50,343 nucleotides of DNA from Bacteroides sp. (GTDB taxonomy: Bacteria > Bacteroidota > Bacteroidia > Bacteroidales > Muribaculaceae), in contig JAAVDB010000044.1 of assembly GCA_014802015.1 (NCBI GenBank), positions 1 through 50,343 on the forward strand, in the 5' to 3' direction. Below, piece after piece: positions 42,791 through 50,343 of this stretch. Below the pieces are notes generated by a model. That model worked only from the letters and a program-made list of their open reading frames with translations, was not told where the DNA came from and did not search any database. A program made the position numbers and the translations under genes. How positions within the stretch are numbered: the stretch's first letter is position 1; each line of letters begins with the position of its first letter.

Positions 42791-44275
42791 TCATCCTGCA
42801 GCTGAATCTTTGAGTACGACGGGGAGTGCGAGTGTGTTGACCTGGCCTGATGCGGTGACCGGAAGTTCGCGCAACAGCACGAAAAATTCGGGTATCATAT
42901 AGGCCGGCAGGTACTGGGCCAGACGGTTCTTGACCCAAGAGAGGCTGAACGAAGAGGTAGTGGGCACGACATAACCTACGAGATAGGTAGCTCCCTTTTC
43001 ATCCTGATAGTGTACGACTGCACAATCGCTGACCTCGCCTGTAGCGAGAAGTGCGCGCTCGACTTCACCTGTCACTACTCGTTTGCCGAGGATGTTGACC
43101 TCACTCTCCTTACGGCGTACATACGAGATGTTGCCGTCAGTCAGACGTATACCGATGTCACCTGTGCGGGCTACGCGTGTGCCGTCAGGGAGTATGGCGA
43201 TGGACGAGAGCTGTTCGGCACGGTGGTCGCCCGTGAATGAGTCAGCCACGCCTGAGCCGGCAATGCATATCTCACCCTCCTCTCCGTCAGCTACGGGACG
43301 GAGTTCGCTGTCGAGCAGCATTACCTCCACACCGTCGAGCGGACTGCCGATGGGGAAGTTGCCTGATGCGAGCGAGTAGCCGTTGTTGCAGCAGTAACAT
43401 GTAGTGAGTGCGGTGCCTTCGGTCGGTCCGTAGGTGTGATAGACGGGGAGCTGTTCGAGCAGGTGACCGATGGATGAGGGGTTGAGCTGGTCGCCACCGC
43501 TGATGAGCATACGCAGTGTGATCGGTAGCGAGGGCATACGGTTCAACTCCTGGAGCAGATAGGGGAATCCGCTGATGATTGACACGTACTGATCGTCGGC
43601 AAACTGCATGAGTGCCTGTGGATTGTTGCGTGTGGCGGCTGACGGTATGGCGAGTACGGCTCCGTTGAGAAGCGTGCCGAATACCTCTTCGATAAATATA
43701 TTGACGATGCATGCCGAATACTGGAGCAGCACGTCGTCAGGTGATATGTTGAACGTCTGTCCGAAACGCCGGGCCATCTCGACGACCTGACGGTTGCCTA
43801 CCATCACGCCGATGGGATAACCGGAGATGCTGGAGGTGTACATGATATATGCTGGTCGGTCGGCCTTGCAACGGTCGGGCAGGGGATAGAGTTCGGAGGC
43901 CGATGTGATCTGGCTACCTACGATGAAGAGTGTGAAGTCACTGAGCATCGAGCTGTATTTCTCCTGAGTCACGACGAAATCCACTCCGCTCTCGGTGAGA
44001 AAACGGTTCATCCTCTCGGGGGGGAAGTCCGGCTCGACGGGCACGAATGCCGCGCCGCATTTGATGATCGCCATGATGGCGGCTATCATTTCCAGACTGT
44101 GGTCCATGACCACACCCACACGTGCGGGGATAAAGGTCGGAAACCGTGATATGAGTGTATCGACCATGCGGTCGAGCCCTGAATAAGTTACGCATGAACG
44201 CTCGTCAATGATGGCGGGCTGGTCGGGTTGAGCAGTGACGAGTTCCTTGAAGCGTGAATAGATCGTCGTATCCAT
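42791..44275 (-). CDS. lone NRPS-type adenylation protein with degenerate core motifs
   Basis: A 494-residue member of the AMP-binding superfamily with an NRPS A-domain pattern and no carrier or condensation domain. Core motifs are visible: A2 (KCGAAFVPVEPDFPPER, 72-88), A5 (HTYGPTEGTA), A7 (ARTGDIG) and A8 (RRKESEVNILGKRVVTGEVE). Two motifs are broken. A3, normally TSGSTGKPKG, reads TSSISGYPIG (147-156). The catalytic lysine of A10 (SGKVDR) is Gln478 in TASGQVNT. Adenylate formation should therefore be poor or absent, and it may bind a ligand or serve a structural role (inference). It lies 101 bp after the ATPase-TOPRIM gene on the same strand, with AAGAAGGATG before the start. Confidence 0.85.
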   Translation of the reverse strand: MDTTIYSRFKELVTAQPDQPAIIDERSCVTYSGLDRMVDTLISRFPTFIPARVGVVMDHSLEMIAAIMAIIKCGAAFVPVEPDFPPERMNRFLTESGVDFVVTQEKYSSMLSDFTLFIVGSQITSASELYPLPDRCKADRPAYIMYTSSISGYPIGVMVGNRQVVEMARRFGQTFNISPDDVLLQYSACIVNIFIEEVFGTLLNGAVLAIPSAATRNNPQALMQFADDQYVSIISGFPYLLQELNRMPSLPITLRMLISGGDQLNPSSIGHLLEQLPVYHTYGPTEGTALTTCYCCNNGYSLASGNFPIGSPLDGVEVMLLDSELRPVADGEEGEICIAGSGVADSFTGDHRAEQLSSIAILPDGTRVARTGDIGIRLTDGNISYVRRKESEVNILGKRVVTGEVERALLATGEVSDCAVVHYQDEKGATYLVGYVVPTTSSFSLSWVKNRLAQYLPAYMIPEFFVLLRELPVTASGQVNTLALPVVLKDSAAG

Positions 44276-44376: not shown

Positions 44377-45981
44377 TTACATGGCGGTCTCTGAGTCCGT
44401 GCCGTCCGTGAGATTGAATGTGGCCCTGATGGCCGAACGTATAGTGTCGGAGCCGGTGCGGTTGTGGGCGAGGATATTGATGATGGTGTTGATGTATGTA
44501 TCCTTGTCATCATGCCTCAGTCCGCAATGGCGCGCCACGTGACTTTCTGACAGCATGGTCTTACGGTTATAGACGCGCAGTATCGATGCATAGTCCCCCT
44601 CCTTGACATATCTGCGGAAGTCGCGGCACAACTGCTCGTACAGCGCCAGCGGATTAAGCTCTTCGGCCAGGTCTCGTATATGTGCCTCAAGCTGGTTGAT
44701 GTTGGCGAAACGTCCGTCTATGCGGTGTTCCACCCCCTTTTTGATGCGATGGCGTGTGTGCTGCAGAGCCTGTTGGCGCAGGTCGGTCTCGAAGAGACGG
44801 ATGATGTTGCGCCTGACCTTTTCAAACACCTCGTCGGGATCACGGCGGTTGAGGGAGGCGAGCGTGCGTATGACCGGTTCGAGCATGAAGATATTCTCGA
44901 TTTCGGCCACATCGGGCACGAATACCTGCTTCTTGCGCAGATATGCCACTTCGCCCTCGTCGCGACGGTCACGGTCGACGATGCCGTAGGCGTTGAGGTT
45001 GTGGAATGCACGAAGTGAGTTGAACGTGCGTGTCGACTCGATGACGCGGTCACACCCGCCGAGCGATTTGACCGTATAGTCGTTGAATATTAGCGGATAG
45101 AGACGTGCGTCAATGGAGTTGACACCGTCCCCTTCGATGAACAGTACGGGTTTGCGTGCGCCGAGGATGGCGAGAAACACGTCGTCGCTTATCCCCTCGG
45201 CCGATGTGAGCAGGTCATAGTCCCACTCGCCGTGATCGTAGTCATAGTCCTTGACCCAGATGGTGCACCCTTCGCCGCGCGATGAAGCGAACTGCAGGTC
45301 GTGTGTCACGTATATGAACGTGCAGTCGGGACGCGAGTTCTCGATGCTGTTCCACAGCGATGCCGTTGATGACGGATGCAGAAACATTTCGGGCGACTCG
45401 ACGAGTATCACTGCATCCTTGGGCGCGTAGGTCACCGCTCCGAGATAATAGAACACGGTCTTCTCTCCGTCCGACAGTTTAGACGGCGAATAGGGATCCG
45501 AATCCGAGTCGCGGCTGAAGAGCATGCGTCCGCTGTCGACGAGGACCCTGTTGCCCGGGAATACCTTGTGCCACTGCTGCATCACGCGGTCGAGCCGTGT
45601 GGGGGGCGGCAGTTGCGTACGCAGATGATGAGCTGCCCCCTCGTCCGAGTATTTGTATTGGATGAGATTGAGCATCTCTTCATTGACCATCATGCCGATT
45701 AGTCGCTCAAACTCGCCGCGCAGATCGGGGCGGAGGAGTGAAGAACCGCTGACGGCACGGTTATAGATTGAGTCGATGGACGTATCGCTCTGATCCTGAC
45801 TGTCGCGGTTGTATAGAGCTTTTAGAGCCGACAGGCGAAATGTGCGGTGACCGAGATCAGCGGCCAGACGGTTAGCGAAACGGGTTTTGCCCGAGCCGTT
45901 GGCGCCTATGATGACGATGTGGCGCATTCCTGAGGTGTCGATGTCGAGAGGTGCGGATCCTGTGCGTGGAGGGAGTAGCAT
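44377..45981 (-). CDS. single-chain ABC-type ATPase plus DUF4435/TOPRIM protein (PARIS-like)
   Basis: A 534-residue protein joining two parts. Residues 15-235 form an ABC/SMC-type ATPase: Walker A GANGSGKT (26-33), signature LSDGEK (169-174), an altered Walker B VILVESPEMFLHP (191-203, where DEPE is usual) and H-loop THD (His227). Residues 275-400 match a DUF4435 TOPRIM-like domain: Glu283 in LFIEGDG, then VDRD (Asp336, Asp338), and a further acidic cluster VAEIEN. The rest is helical. PARIS anti-phage systems consist of an AriA ATPase and an AriB DUF4435 nuclease, and merged forms exist, so this could be one. Similar proteins are also widespread as uncharacterised chromosomal genes. No partner gene is adjacent, and the base composition is like its neighbours. 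Confidence 0.8.
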   Translation of the reverse strand: MLLPPRTGSAPLDIDTSGMRHIVIIGANGSGKTRFANRLAADLGHRTFRLSALKALYNRDSQDQSDTSIDSIYNRAVSGSSLLRPDLRGEFERLIGMMVNEEMLNLIQYKYSDEGAAHHLRTQLPPPTRLDRVMQQWHKVFPGNRVLVDSGRMLFSRDSDSDPYSPSKLSDGEKTVFYYLGAVTYAPKDAVILVESPEMFLHPSSTASLWNSIENSRPDCTFIYVTHDLQFASSRGEGCTIWVKDYDYDHGEWDYDLLTSAEGISDDVFLAILGARKPVLFIEGDGVNSIDARLYPLIFNDYTVKSLGGCDRVIESTRTFNSLRAFHNLNAYGIVDRDRRDEGEVAYLRKKQVFVPDVAEIENIFMLEPVIRTLASLNRRDPDEVFEKVRRNIIRLFETDLRQQALQHTRHRIKKGVEHRIDGRFANINQLEAHIRDLAEELNPLALYEQLCRDFRRYVKEGDYASILRVYNRKTMLSESHVARHCGLRHDDKDTYINTIINILAHNRTGSDTIRSAIRATFNLTDGTDSETAM

Positions 45982-46042: not shown

Positions 46043-47311
46043 CTAAAATTCATATCGCGAGGATATGTTGACCAGAAGGGCTGATGAGACTCCGTGGGCC
46101 GATGCTCCTTCGGGGATATGGTAGGCGGTGGACGGTTTTACCGTAAATCGGTAGCGTGACATCTCGTATCCCACCGAGGCATGTGTGCTGAAATGCGGAC
46201 TGAGCCGCAGGACACATCCGACACCTATACGTCCTACGGGCGATGAAGTGCCGGTGCTGACGGATGAGTCGTCGAGATTTAACGGCAGGTTGTGACGGTA
46301 GCCTGCGGCGGCCTCAGCTGTCAGACGGAAACGGCTGCTGAGAGTGTGGATATAATAAGGAGCCACCATCGCGCTGACCGAAGTGAGCGACTTGACGAAG
46401 GTACGGTCATGGTGTACGTTGGTGACGAGCGGTGTCGACAGCAATCCTACCTCCAGTGCCACCCCCCAGTGGTCGGAAAATCTGTGACCGCTGCGCAGCG
46501 ACACCGACAGTGAGGGCAGACGTTCTATAGAGGTCTGACCTGCATGTATCGGACCGAGCGGGAGTGAGAGTCCGGTCTGCAATGACATGAATGAGAAGTA
46601 TGACTCTTTGCACAGATCACGCCCTGTGATGCAGGCTTGAGAATTGCCGAATATGAGATCGCTTATCAGATAGCCGACGTTGGCCGAGAGTATGCCTATA
46701 CCGGCACCGGCGATTACATCCACAGGATAGTGATGACGGTCAAATATACGCTCAAGAGCTATGCCTGTGGCGAGCGTGTAGGCTCCGACCGTGTACCACG
46801 GTGACAGGTCACCGAGTTCGTAAGCCGCCATTGTCGCGCCCATGAATGCCCAGGCCGTGTGGCCTGACGGGAACGCGTCGGGCCCGCTCACGTCAGGACG
46901 TATGTCTACTATAGCCGATTTAAGCCCCTTGACACTACCTGCCATAAATGCCGTGGCCACAGCCTGTGTCACGGCCAGGCGTTTCCAGTCCGACCTGGTG
47001 TGAGCGCCGGCGGCCTTGAATACCCAAGGGGTGAGGGTCGGTACATACTGGAGGTAATCGGCCAGATGATCAGCGCCCTTGTCAGACGATCTTACCTTGA
47101 AAGCATGCGGATAGATCTGACGAGCGGTCCCGGCCACACCGAGCATTCCCGCTCCGGCCACTATGCCTGGCCACGGATGCAGTGACTTGATCGGACGCAG
47201 GGTGTCGGCTTCAATTATAGTATCGGCATGCGTCACACTCCCCCTGATCGAGATGATCGTGAGCAAAAGGACTGTGATGAACCTACATGTGTATGAATAG
47301 GTGGCCGACAT
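46043..47311 (-). CDS. PAP2 phosphatase with C-terminal outer-membrane-barrel-like domain
   Basis: A 422-residue exported protein (signal FITVLLLTIISIRGSVTHA). Residues 50-225 are a PAP2 phosphatase: KSAIVDIRP (motif 1), PSGHT (motif 2) and RIFDRHHYPVD (motif 3, with Glu in place of the leading Ser), among hydrophobic helices. From about 240 alternating beta-strands follow (FMSLQTGLSLPLGP, RLTAEAAAGYRHN, FSTHASVGYEMSRYRFTV) to a final Phe (SSRYEF), the mark of a BAM-inserted barrel. A predicted function is dephosphorylation of a lipid or isoprenyl phosphate in the envelope. It lies 78 bp after the AraC gene and 61 bp before the ATPase gene. Confidence 0.85.
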   Translation of the reverse strand: MSATYSYTCRFITVLLLTIISIRGSVTHADTIIEADTLRPIKSLHPWPGIVAGAGMLGVAGTARQIYPHAFKVRSSDKGADHLADYLQYVPTLTPWVFKAAGAHTRSDWKRLAVTQAVATAFMAGSVKGLKSAIVDIRPDVSGPDAFPSGHTAWAFMGATMAAYELGDLSPWYTVGAYTLATGIALERIFDRHHYPVDVIAGAGIGILSANVGYLISDLIFGNSQACITGRDLCKESYFSFMSLQTGLSLPLGPIHAGQTSIERLPSLSVSLRSGHRFSDHWGVALEVGLLSTPLVTNVHHDRTFVKSLTSVSAMVAPYYIHTLSSRFRLTAEAAAGYRHNLPLNLDDSSVSTGTSSPVGRIGVGCVLRLSPHFSTHASVGYEMSRYRFTVKPSTAYHIPEGASAHGVSSALLVNISSRYEF

Positions 47312-47389: not shown

Positions 47390-48340
47390 TCAGGAGCGTT
47401 GATATTCCGACGGTGACATGCCTGTGAGATGCTTGAAATATTTTCCGAATGACGATTGATTTGGAAAATTAAGTTCGTAAGCTACCTGCTGGATGTTCTT
47501 TCCCGAGAATCGCAGCAGATTCTTGGCTTCGAGTATGACGTACGAGTCGATTACCTCGGTAGCCGACCGTCCGGTGCTCTCCTTGATTATGAGCGACAGG
47601 TATTTGGGCGAGATGAACAGTTTGCCGGCATAGAACGCGACCGACCGTTCGCGCACGTGATGCTCATGCACGAGACGCATGAACTCGTTGACGTAAGTCG
47701 AGCGGCGCGAACGTGACGGCCTTACCTCGTCAGGCGAGTCCTTGAGGCGGCGGGTCACGAGGTTGAGCACCTGATACAGAAGTGCGGCGATGAGACAGCG
47801 TGCTATGGACTTAGTGTAGAGATTATCACTGTTTTCCGACGAATTGCGGTGCAGCAGACTGAAATATTCGCGCAGTCCGGCAGTCTCGTCGGGGGTGATG
47901 TGCATCACGCGGTCGGCATCCGAGCGCTGTCCGAAATTCAGAGGTCTGGATGAGCCGATGACATTGAGGTCGAAATTAATATCATGCATGAACTCGGTCG
48001 ACACGAACAGCAGATAACAGTCCAGATCGGTCGGATCGATCTTCTTCATCTCGATCATCGAGCCTGGTGGAATAACGGTGATGCATTCCGATGTCAGCGT
48101 GACGGGTGTAAGGTTAAGCTCAAAATCGAGCTGTCCGCTGACGCACAGTATCCACGAGATGCCGTCGATACGTAGCGGTCCGTCGATATGGTCAATGCCG
48201 TTGAGACTGTCAAACCGCATGGCGCGGAGGATGGTGTCGGAGGTCAGACGCGTGAACAGATAGTCGTCACTCAGATTGGAGAACTCGGACGAGAATCGCG
48301 ACAATGCAGTGAGTTGGTTGAGGTTGACGGTATTTCCCAT
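47390..48340 (-). CDS. AraC-family transcription regulator
   Basis: A 316-residue cytosolic regulator. Residues 40-150 look like a cupin-type effector domain (SWILCVSGQLDFELNL, CITVIPPGSMIEMK). The C-terminal 100 residues are a double HTH (FYAGKLFISPKYLSLIIKES and IQQVAYELNFPNQSSFGKYF, ending MSPSEYQRS). The effector is unknown. A TACTTTTG box lies about 45 bp upstream without a clear -33 element. It precedes the PAP2 gene and follows the porin gene on the same strand. Confidence 0.9.
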   Translation of the reverse strand: MGNTVNLNQLTALSRFSSEFSNLSDDYLFTRLTSDTILRAMRFDSLNGIDHIDGPLRIDGISWILCVSGQLDFELNLTPVTLTSECITVIPPGSMIEMKKIDPTDLDCYLLFVSTEFMHDINFDLNVIGSSRPLNFGQRSDADRVMHITPDETAGLREYFSLLHRNSSENSDNLYTKSIARCLIAALLYQVLNLVTRRLKDSPDEVRPSRSRRSTYVNEFMRLVHEHHVRERSVAFYAGKLFISPKYLSLIIKESTGRSATEVIDSYVILEAKNLLRFSGKNIQQVAYELNFPNQSSFGKYFKHLTGMSPSEYQRS

Positions 48341-49763: not shown

Positions 49764-50343
49764 TTAATCGGTAGTAGTAGGTGTGGGCAGAGGGGTACCC
49801 TTGGCTACCTTACCGGCCTTTTTGAGTTCACGGAACTCTTTCTTGGCCTTTTCGAGCTGTTTCTGGAAAGCAGGGTCGGCGTGCAGACGGGCTACGGTGA
49901 CCGCACCTGTGATACGTCCGGCATCGACATCGCTCTGGAAATGATAACCGCAGATGACGCGGCTCTCGCCCATCTCATATCCGCGTTTCAGGATCTCGTT
50001 CTGACGTTCGGGATTGATCTCGGCCAACACCAGAGCGGTGGCCCATCCGATTGAGGTGTGTCCCGAGGGATATGAACCGTTGGTCGATAATTCTTCCTGC
50101 TGTTCAGGATTACAGGTGTCCTCATTGTAGAACGAGAACGGGCGTTCGCGGTTGTAATAGTTCTTGGCTTCACGTGTGCCGAGATCGCCGGCATCCTCAC
50201 GCATTCCTACCACTAATTTAAGTATCTCGGGGGTGTCCTCGCATATCTCTACACCGAATGCTTCTGAGAAAGCTTCGGGTACACCGTTGCCTTCTACGCG
50301 TGCATCGGTCACGGCCTGATCGCCGCGCGGGGTGTTGCGCATG
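49764..50343 (-). CDS. class A (PhoN-type) acid phosphatase, 5' end outside window
   Basis: A PAP2-superfamily acid phosphatase cut by the right edge, so the visible Met at 50342 need not be the start. About 192 residues are seen. All three motifs are present: [15 protein letters not shown] and [17 protein letters not shown]. The length and the CGYHFQSD signature fit class A non-specific acid phosphatases, which are periplasmic. The C-terminus is a charged helix and a PLPTPTTTD tail. No promoter lies in the 56 bp before the porin gene, so the two are probably cotranscribed. Confidence 0.9.

Follow-up and report, generated by a model that had tools for sequence, protein, structure and literature searches.

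A single gene that joins an AriA-like ATPase to an AriB-like TOPRIM domain, the two components of the anti-phage system PARIS, is near-core in a group of gut Bacteroidales families and has descended there mostly vertically. We put at roughly 55% the probability that this AriAB-type gene was fixed once in an ancestor of these bacteria and, mainly vertically inherited, has become a near-core, dispensable host gene encoding an occupancy-switched nuclease of host RNA. Since it occupies an ordinary chromosomal site in most members of its family, with a worn ATPase and a kept nuclease, the gene product looks like a resident component of the cell and not like a mobile defence gene.

Domain assignment and predicted fold

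The gene lies on the minus strand of the window, by which we mean the whole 50,343-nucleotide stretch of DNA that was analysed. The initial annotation had described its product as an ABC-type ATPase and a DUF4435 TOPRIM domain, the PARIS pair, fused in one chain, and both profile matches and the predicted folds of the two halves bear this out. The features of the gene and, as context only, three neighbouring genes are the following, where counts out of 195 refer to core-clade sequences, with some genomes present twice (L043 and L060, for example, are the same contig).

42791..44275 (-): downstream neighbour, AMP-binding (adenylation) enzyme (context only)
44377..45981 (-): fused AriA-like ATPase and DUF4435 TOPRIM protein, ATG start, 534 aa
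45196..45981 (-): ABC/AriA-like ATPase half, residues 1–262
45883..45906 (-): Walker A, GANGSGKT, residues 26–33; K32 in 195/195
45460..45477 (-): ABC signature, LSDGEK, residues 169–174; S170 and E173 in 195/195
45388..45411 (-): altered Walker B, VILVESPE, residues 191–198; DEPE in relatives outside the clade
45394..45396 (-): S196, at the position of the catalytic Glu, AriA E393, by equal-length (ungapped) aligned stretches
45301..45303 (-): H227 of the H-loop THD; 195/195
44551..45156 (-): DUF4435/AriB-like TOPRIM domain, residues 276–477
45133..45135 (-): TOPRIM E283; 195/195
44968..44976 (-): TOPRIM DRD, D336 to D338; both Asp in 195/195
44893..44904 (-): E360-x-E362-N363 motif of DUF4435; 195/195
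46043..47311 (-): upstream neighbour, PAP2 phosphatase with a possible outer-membrane barrel (weak match; context only)
47390..48340 (-): AraC regulator (context only)

Pfam matched AAA_21 to residues 159–230 of the 534-residue protein (40.9 bits) and DUF4435 to residues 276–477 (86.2 bits, cut-off 27). The merged AriAB profile of PADLOC (PDLC02982), which along with DUF4435 had been proposed as a check, scored 317.5 bits, residues 17–497 aligning to positions 43–543 of 570, and the AriB profile (PDLC02983) scored 75 bits. Of the other proteins scanned with the AriAB profile, four core members reached 355–412 bits and three mobile or sporadic fused proteins 447–582 bits; all these values are profile scores, of which PADLOC's own system-level cut-offs form no part. 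An AriA-type ABC ATPase domain, an AriB/DUF4435 TOPRIM domain with its catalytic acids and a merged AriAB profile match are all present, and by both sequence and fold the window protein is a member of the AriAB family.

The structure comparison with AriA–AriB that had also been suggested gave a concordant picture, the best realigned matches of the predicted folds being AriA for the ATPase half and AriB for the TOPRIM half. Foldseek ranked PtuA, OLD and GajA on top for the full model, with AriA absent among the matches listed, and AriA came first when the list was realigned. For the C-terminal half, AriB was found by fold search, where a sequence profile run against the PDB did not find it and gave only matches at E >= 0.063, with RIG-I and two tRNA synthetases as weak, probably chance matches. 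The viral structure library held no good full-length match, with a query TM of at most 0.29 among the matches listed.

Distribution, descent and surroundings

Within the window's family, 258 of 297 genomes carry the gene at E<=1e-20, including 184 of the 204 of good quality and 28 of 30 genera; four of the genomes listed have two matches and the others listed have one. An even sample of the order yielded matches in 25 of 295 genomes, which fall into family blocks (3/3 in each of f22, f28, f60, f88 and f109, 2/3 in f105 and 1/3 in f3) together with a handful of sporadic matches whose identity is about 30%, and a phylum sample yielded 3 of 296, the window's genome among the three. All three counts include the window's own genome, the samples hold one genome per species, and the family names attached to f-numbers are inferred. 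The fused form is found in at least seven families, and the carriers named among the best 80 of 395 relatives are Muribaculaceae, Barnesiella, Coprobacter, Gallibacteroides, Parabacteroides and other Tannerellaceae. One Parabacteroides genome (name inferred; G400) has, besides the core gene, a second, sporadic-type AriAB relative with DEPE (L056).

Losses exist within the family, in f105 (genome G499) and in f3 (two of three genomes, one of them G513), and the gene is therefore not essential. Of the 20 non-carriers listed for the family, 19 lack any DUF4435 match, including five listed as 99% complete; when these 20 and two weakly matching genomes were searched again for DUF4435, three of the 22 gave any match, one of them a non-carrier. 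Absence can be genus-wise, extending to 4/4 listed g26 genomes and to most listed g3 genomes of the family.

Distant fused relatives occur on plasmids (53 records, all below 60% identity); a DEPE-type relative, for example, lies on a Synechocystis plasmid (L191). A Parabacteroides plasmid copy (H1) was considered and rejected: the 219-kb record in question (L140, NZ_OY725834.1), filed as a P. distasonis plasmid, is probably a chromosome fragment, since uvrA and nhaA are on it, as is the usual GT39 neighbour, alongside other chromosome-like genes. A phage-borne origin was rejected too, as no relative was found in viral contigs and the sole match in phage records was to Oenococcus phage phi9805, in two records and at 29% identity over 68%.

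The gene tree largely follows that of RpoB. Patristic distances correlate with r 0.89 over 29 carrier genomes from six families (29 of 30, G383 having no RpoB), and 14 of 26 splits are common to both trees; 14 gene splits have good support, and of these 8 are also well supported in RpoB and 3 conflict with it. A clade check on the five families other than f1 found each to be a clade in both trees, and f1 appears as one clade in both as printed. Here and in the wider RpoB tree that follows, the carrying families other than f3 are represented by carriers alone, which places G499 outside the trees. In an RpoB tree of 59 genomes of the order, the carriers of f1, f22, f28, f60 and f109 form a clade of 27 (UFB 91) into which no other sampled family falls; adding f105 and the f3 carrier gives a clade of 32 (UFB 67), whose two members without the fused gene are one f3 genome and an f59 genome with a two-gene form. 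Descent has been mostly vertical, and one gain with some losses would be the simplest account.

Relative to RpoB, the gene evolves about 7.4 times as fast. Compared with MenA in 25 of 29 loci, its mean pairwise identity is 0.505 vs 0.533 (r 0.94), with the gene less conserved in 84% of pairs, and compared with GT39 in 30 of 34 GT39 loci it is 0.702 vs 0.670 (r 0.68). For pairs more than 78% identical, dN/dS has a median of 0.048, calculated without zero or saturated dS, and a maximum of 0.135, a quick length and identity filter having skipped some pairs. These rates fit a gene that is maintained, and whole-gene dN/dS weakly suggests that it may also be free of an obvious arms race. We rejected a pseudogene on the dN/dS of about 0.05 and the few internal stops: of 60 further Muribaculaceae genes, L248 alone is interrupted well inside, the stop of L230 being at the very end, and one stop was flagged in 12 of the matches listed in the family search.

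The cluster of the PAP2 neighbour directly adjoins the gene in two further loci of the window's genus, and that of the AraC regulator lies one or two genes upstream in 8 of its 9 loci. Over 78 loci (the 77 named ones and the window, or 81 minus 3 without the gene called), a GT39-type glycosyltransferase is directly downstream on the same strand in 34 and MenA, often overlapping, in 16. MenA is also the neighbour in 10 of 20 further Muribaculaceae stretches, and its identity was confirmed by NCBIfam in two loci. A menaquinone function, for which the MenA neighbour might speak, was not adopted because something other than MenA comes next in the 34 GT39 loci and in 8 of the 9 loci of the window's genus, where the linkage is seen once. 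The enzyme at 42791–44275 is a single NRPS-like adenylation enzyme whose cluster recurs beside the gene, or close to it, at two other loci of the genus. The window also holds two PAP2-family phosphatases within 4 kb (46043–47311 and 49764–50342), of which the second, running to the window's end, is PhoC acid phosphatase-like below the model cut-off.

The gene stands outside any obvious island, as had been noted from the sequence: PADLOC gave no match at E<=0.001 in 10 other window proteins scanned, and Pfam no mobile-element family among the seven neighbours scanned. Across 28 loci, PADLOC was run on 106 neighbour proteins (up to the four nearest genes per locus, chains above 900 aa dropped) and matched 17 models, each in one or two members; about half are helicase models, one match is strong (PDC-S27, a candidate system) and one is to an AriA model. 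On these raw match counts, PADLOC found no repeated defence partner among the 106 proteins.

Two-gene and stand-alone relatives were encountered as well. In f59, which we guess to be Bacteroidaceae, three loci (L286, L287 and L290) hold a two-gene operon in which a compact AAA ATPase with DEPE (about 282 aa) is paired with a DUF4435 protein (about 332 aa), the L290 pair scoring 196 bits for AriA and 216 bits for AriB. DUF4435 occurs in 117 of 121 genomes of this family (that of G354), the two-gene layout itself having been read in those three loci, and the pair is probably near-core there; next to the fused form, AriA/AriB-like genes therefore seem to have reached near-core status at least twice in Bacteroidales. 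A stand-alone DUF4435 protein of 362 aa (L292, genome G408 of f113; AriB model, 158 bits) adjoins what appear by eye to be clpB and phenylacetate-CoA ligase genes, with no adjacent ATPase in the 3.7 kb covered. On a Paraburkholderia plasmid (L192, 5423–9698), a defence-like island contains a two-gene AAA and DUF4435 pair with a fused AAA-DUF4435 gene immediately after it.

ATPase wear and nuclease conservation

Eleven residues (K32, S170, E173, H227, E283, D336, D338, R340, E360, E362 and N363) are invariant in all 195 core-clade sequences, and for this reason the fused architecture and its motifs are not a matter of chance. They include the TOPRIM acids E283, D336 and D338, which the initial annotation had read as intact in the window protein. 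The TOPRIM domain is the most conserved region, with 33 of 93 columns invariant and a mean entropy of 0.82 vs 1.38 to 1.97 elsewhere, and the predicted nuclease is by these measures the part under the strictest constraint.

The altered Walker B (VESPE for DEPE), also pointed out at the start, turned out to be a clade-wide change at the position of the catalytic glutamate. Residues 363–425 of AriA align over equal length to 179–241 of the ATPase-half profile, placing E393 at the second letter of DEPE; over the same AriA stretch, wild type scores 2.1 bits more than the chain shared by the E393Q entry. We take E393 to be the catalytic glutamate of AriA, partly from general knowledge of ABC ATPases. 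The role is further drawn from the PDB title 'AriA (E393Q)' and from PMC9122126.

All 11 sporadic or plasmid relatives outside the core clade have DEPE. Inside it, DEPE is kept in f28 and the f3 carrier, EEPE is found in Tannerellaceae (with a few EEPG or EEPT), and EDPE in Coprobacter, Gallibacteroides, Barnesiella relatives and f22 (one genome QDPE). In Muribaculaceae, Glu occupies the catalytic position in 0 of 99, replaced by Ser (64), Asn (22), Asp (6), Ala (5), Thr (1) or His (1). Placed on a tree of the core clade and the outside relatives (four partial ones left out; support for core-clade monophyly, 62), the Walker B change reads as stepwise wear. ATP hydrolysis is probably lost or slow in the Muribaculaceae proteins, and loss of the catalytic glutamate does not prove that all ATPase activity is gone. 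The steps from DEPE to EEPE, EDPE, DDPE and DSPE offer a natural series for how an ATPase-gated nuclease may work while its ATPase wears away.

Function and comparison with known systems

Because the ATPase catalytic residues are not intact, with S196 at the AriA E393 position, and the distribution is neither accessory, mobile nor island-borne, filing the gene as a PARIS defence system is unwarranted. The initial call of a fused PARIS defence system is not supported as worded for a gene that is near-core and syntenic in a family group; the alternative offered with it, a resident or housekeeping relative, fits better with 258/297 genomes in the family vs 25/295 in the order. Homologues universal and syntenic throughout the order and free of island linkage had been named as evidence against defence, and this pattern is nearly reached in one Bacteroidales family group, not in the whole order. 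The two missing features lower the chance that the protein is PARIS, not that it works in a PARIS-like way.

In the reading that we favour, the gene was probably fixed once in the ancestor of the gut families comprising Muribaculaceae, Barnesiella, Coprobacter, Parabacteroides and relatives, and would later have passed on mainly vertically as a near-core, dispensable host gene. The AriA-like heads may bind ATP and assemble, and the assembled heads would restrain the covalently attached AriB-type TOPRIM nuclease, which ATP or ligand occupancy would switch. Once active, the nuclease may cut host RNA, possibly tRNA by analogy with AriB, and so slow translation under stress. Being fused, the nuclease cannot be ejected, unlike in PARIS, and since the catalytic glutamate is gone, the switch in Muribaculaceae cannot rest on normal ATP hydrolysis; a tied effector, hydrolysis that is probably lost or slow and a nuclease that is the most constrained part together favour a host RNA nuclease gated by ATP occupancy.

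The main rival, which we regard as rather unlikely, is a resident (core) innate immune protein acting by PARIS-like abortive infection and fixed by constant gut phage pressure, in which ATP hydrolysis was no longer needed once sensor and effector were fused. The best realigned fold matches to AriA and AriB, the AriAB profile match and the invariant nuclease residues agree with it, and fused relatives elsewhere can sit in defence islands, as L192 does beside its two-gene pair. A defence gene can also become fixed: according to one survey, PARIS is one of the four system families in N. meningitidis, their presence following phylogeny (PMC9090908). Against it stand the lack of island linkage in the scanned neighbours, the mostly vertical, near-core distribution, a pace about that of MenA with low dN/dS, and the lost catalytic glutamate; in E. 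coli, by contrast, PARIS no longer gave defence once predicted catalytic residues of the ATPase were mutated, and mutating predicted TOPRIM residues had the same effect (PMC9122126). A housekeeping RNA or DNA processing enzyme without switch-like toxicity, similar to RNase M5 or to Cran1, an OLD protein of archaea, is improbable. The AriB active site does resemble that of RNase M5 (PMC12409363), and Cran1 of Sulfolobales is a precedent for vertical inheritance of an OLD protein whose role lies outside defence and for which no antiviral effect was detected (PMC12796447); absence from some near-complete family genomes and from most of the order sample would, however, be unusual for basic processing. 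That this genome recently picked up an ordinary mobile copy of PARIS, an idea with which the fit of the merged PARIS model agrees, is refuted by the 258 carriers among 297 family genomes, the tree largely congruent with RpoB and the lack of any mobile-element family among the seven Pfam-scanned neighbours.

If the favoured reading, an occupancy-switched nuclease of host RNA, is right, a gene filed under anti-phage defence by profile-based tools is a near-core gene of major gut bacteria. More tentatively, gut Bacteroidales might hold a PARIS-type nuclease in their core genome as a hydrolysis-free occupancy switch that regulates host RNA, in that case, much of what is counted as PARIS in gut Bacteroidales would be host genes and not defence. 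The original survey based its single-gene PARIS models on 10+10 sequences picked by domain content (PMC9122126), and models of this kind would, on our reading, not separate such host genes from defence. Nowhere in the literature searched was this gene seen described as part of a core genome.

In PARIS, a hexamer of AriA holds AriB until a phage protein frees it, and the freed AriB cleaves tRNA-Lys and stops growth (PMC11455837; PMC12409363). The window protein resembles this system in its AriA-like ATPase fold, its AriB-like TOPRIM fold with DUF4435 and its nearly full-length match to the merged model, and differs in being fused in cis and in having Ser for the Walker B catalytic Glu (AriA E393); the gene differs in being near-core and mostly vertical in one family group, with no island found. 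PtuA, the ATPase of Septu and of retron PtuA systems, works with an HNH partner. Septu is set apart by that partner, the window gene having no HNH family among the seven neighbouring proteins scanned with Pfam. Cran1, a class 5 OLD protein, is alike in joining ATPase and TOPRIM, in belonging to a defence-related family, in vertical inheritance within one order and in a conserved neighbour gene; it is archaeal, has an OLD-type TOPRIM and is reported to be not deletable, while the window gene is of the DUF4435 type and lost in some genomes. The f59 pair shares the AriA- and AriB-like parts and differs in consisting of two genes, with a canonical DEPE and visibly different TOPRIM motifs.
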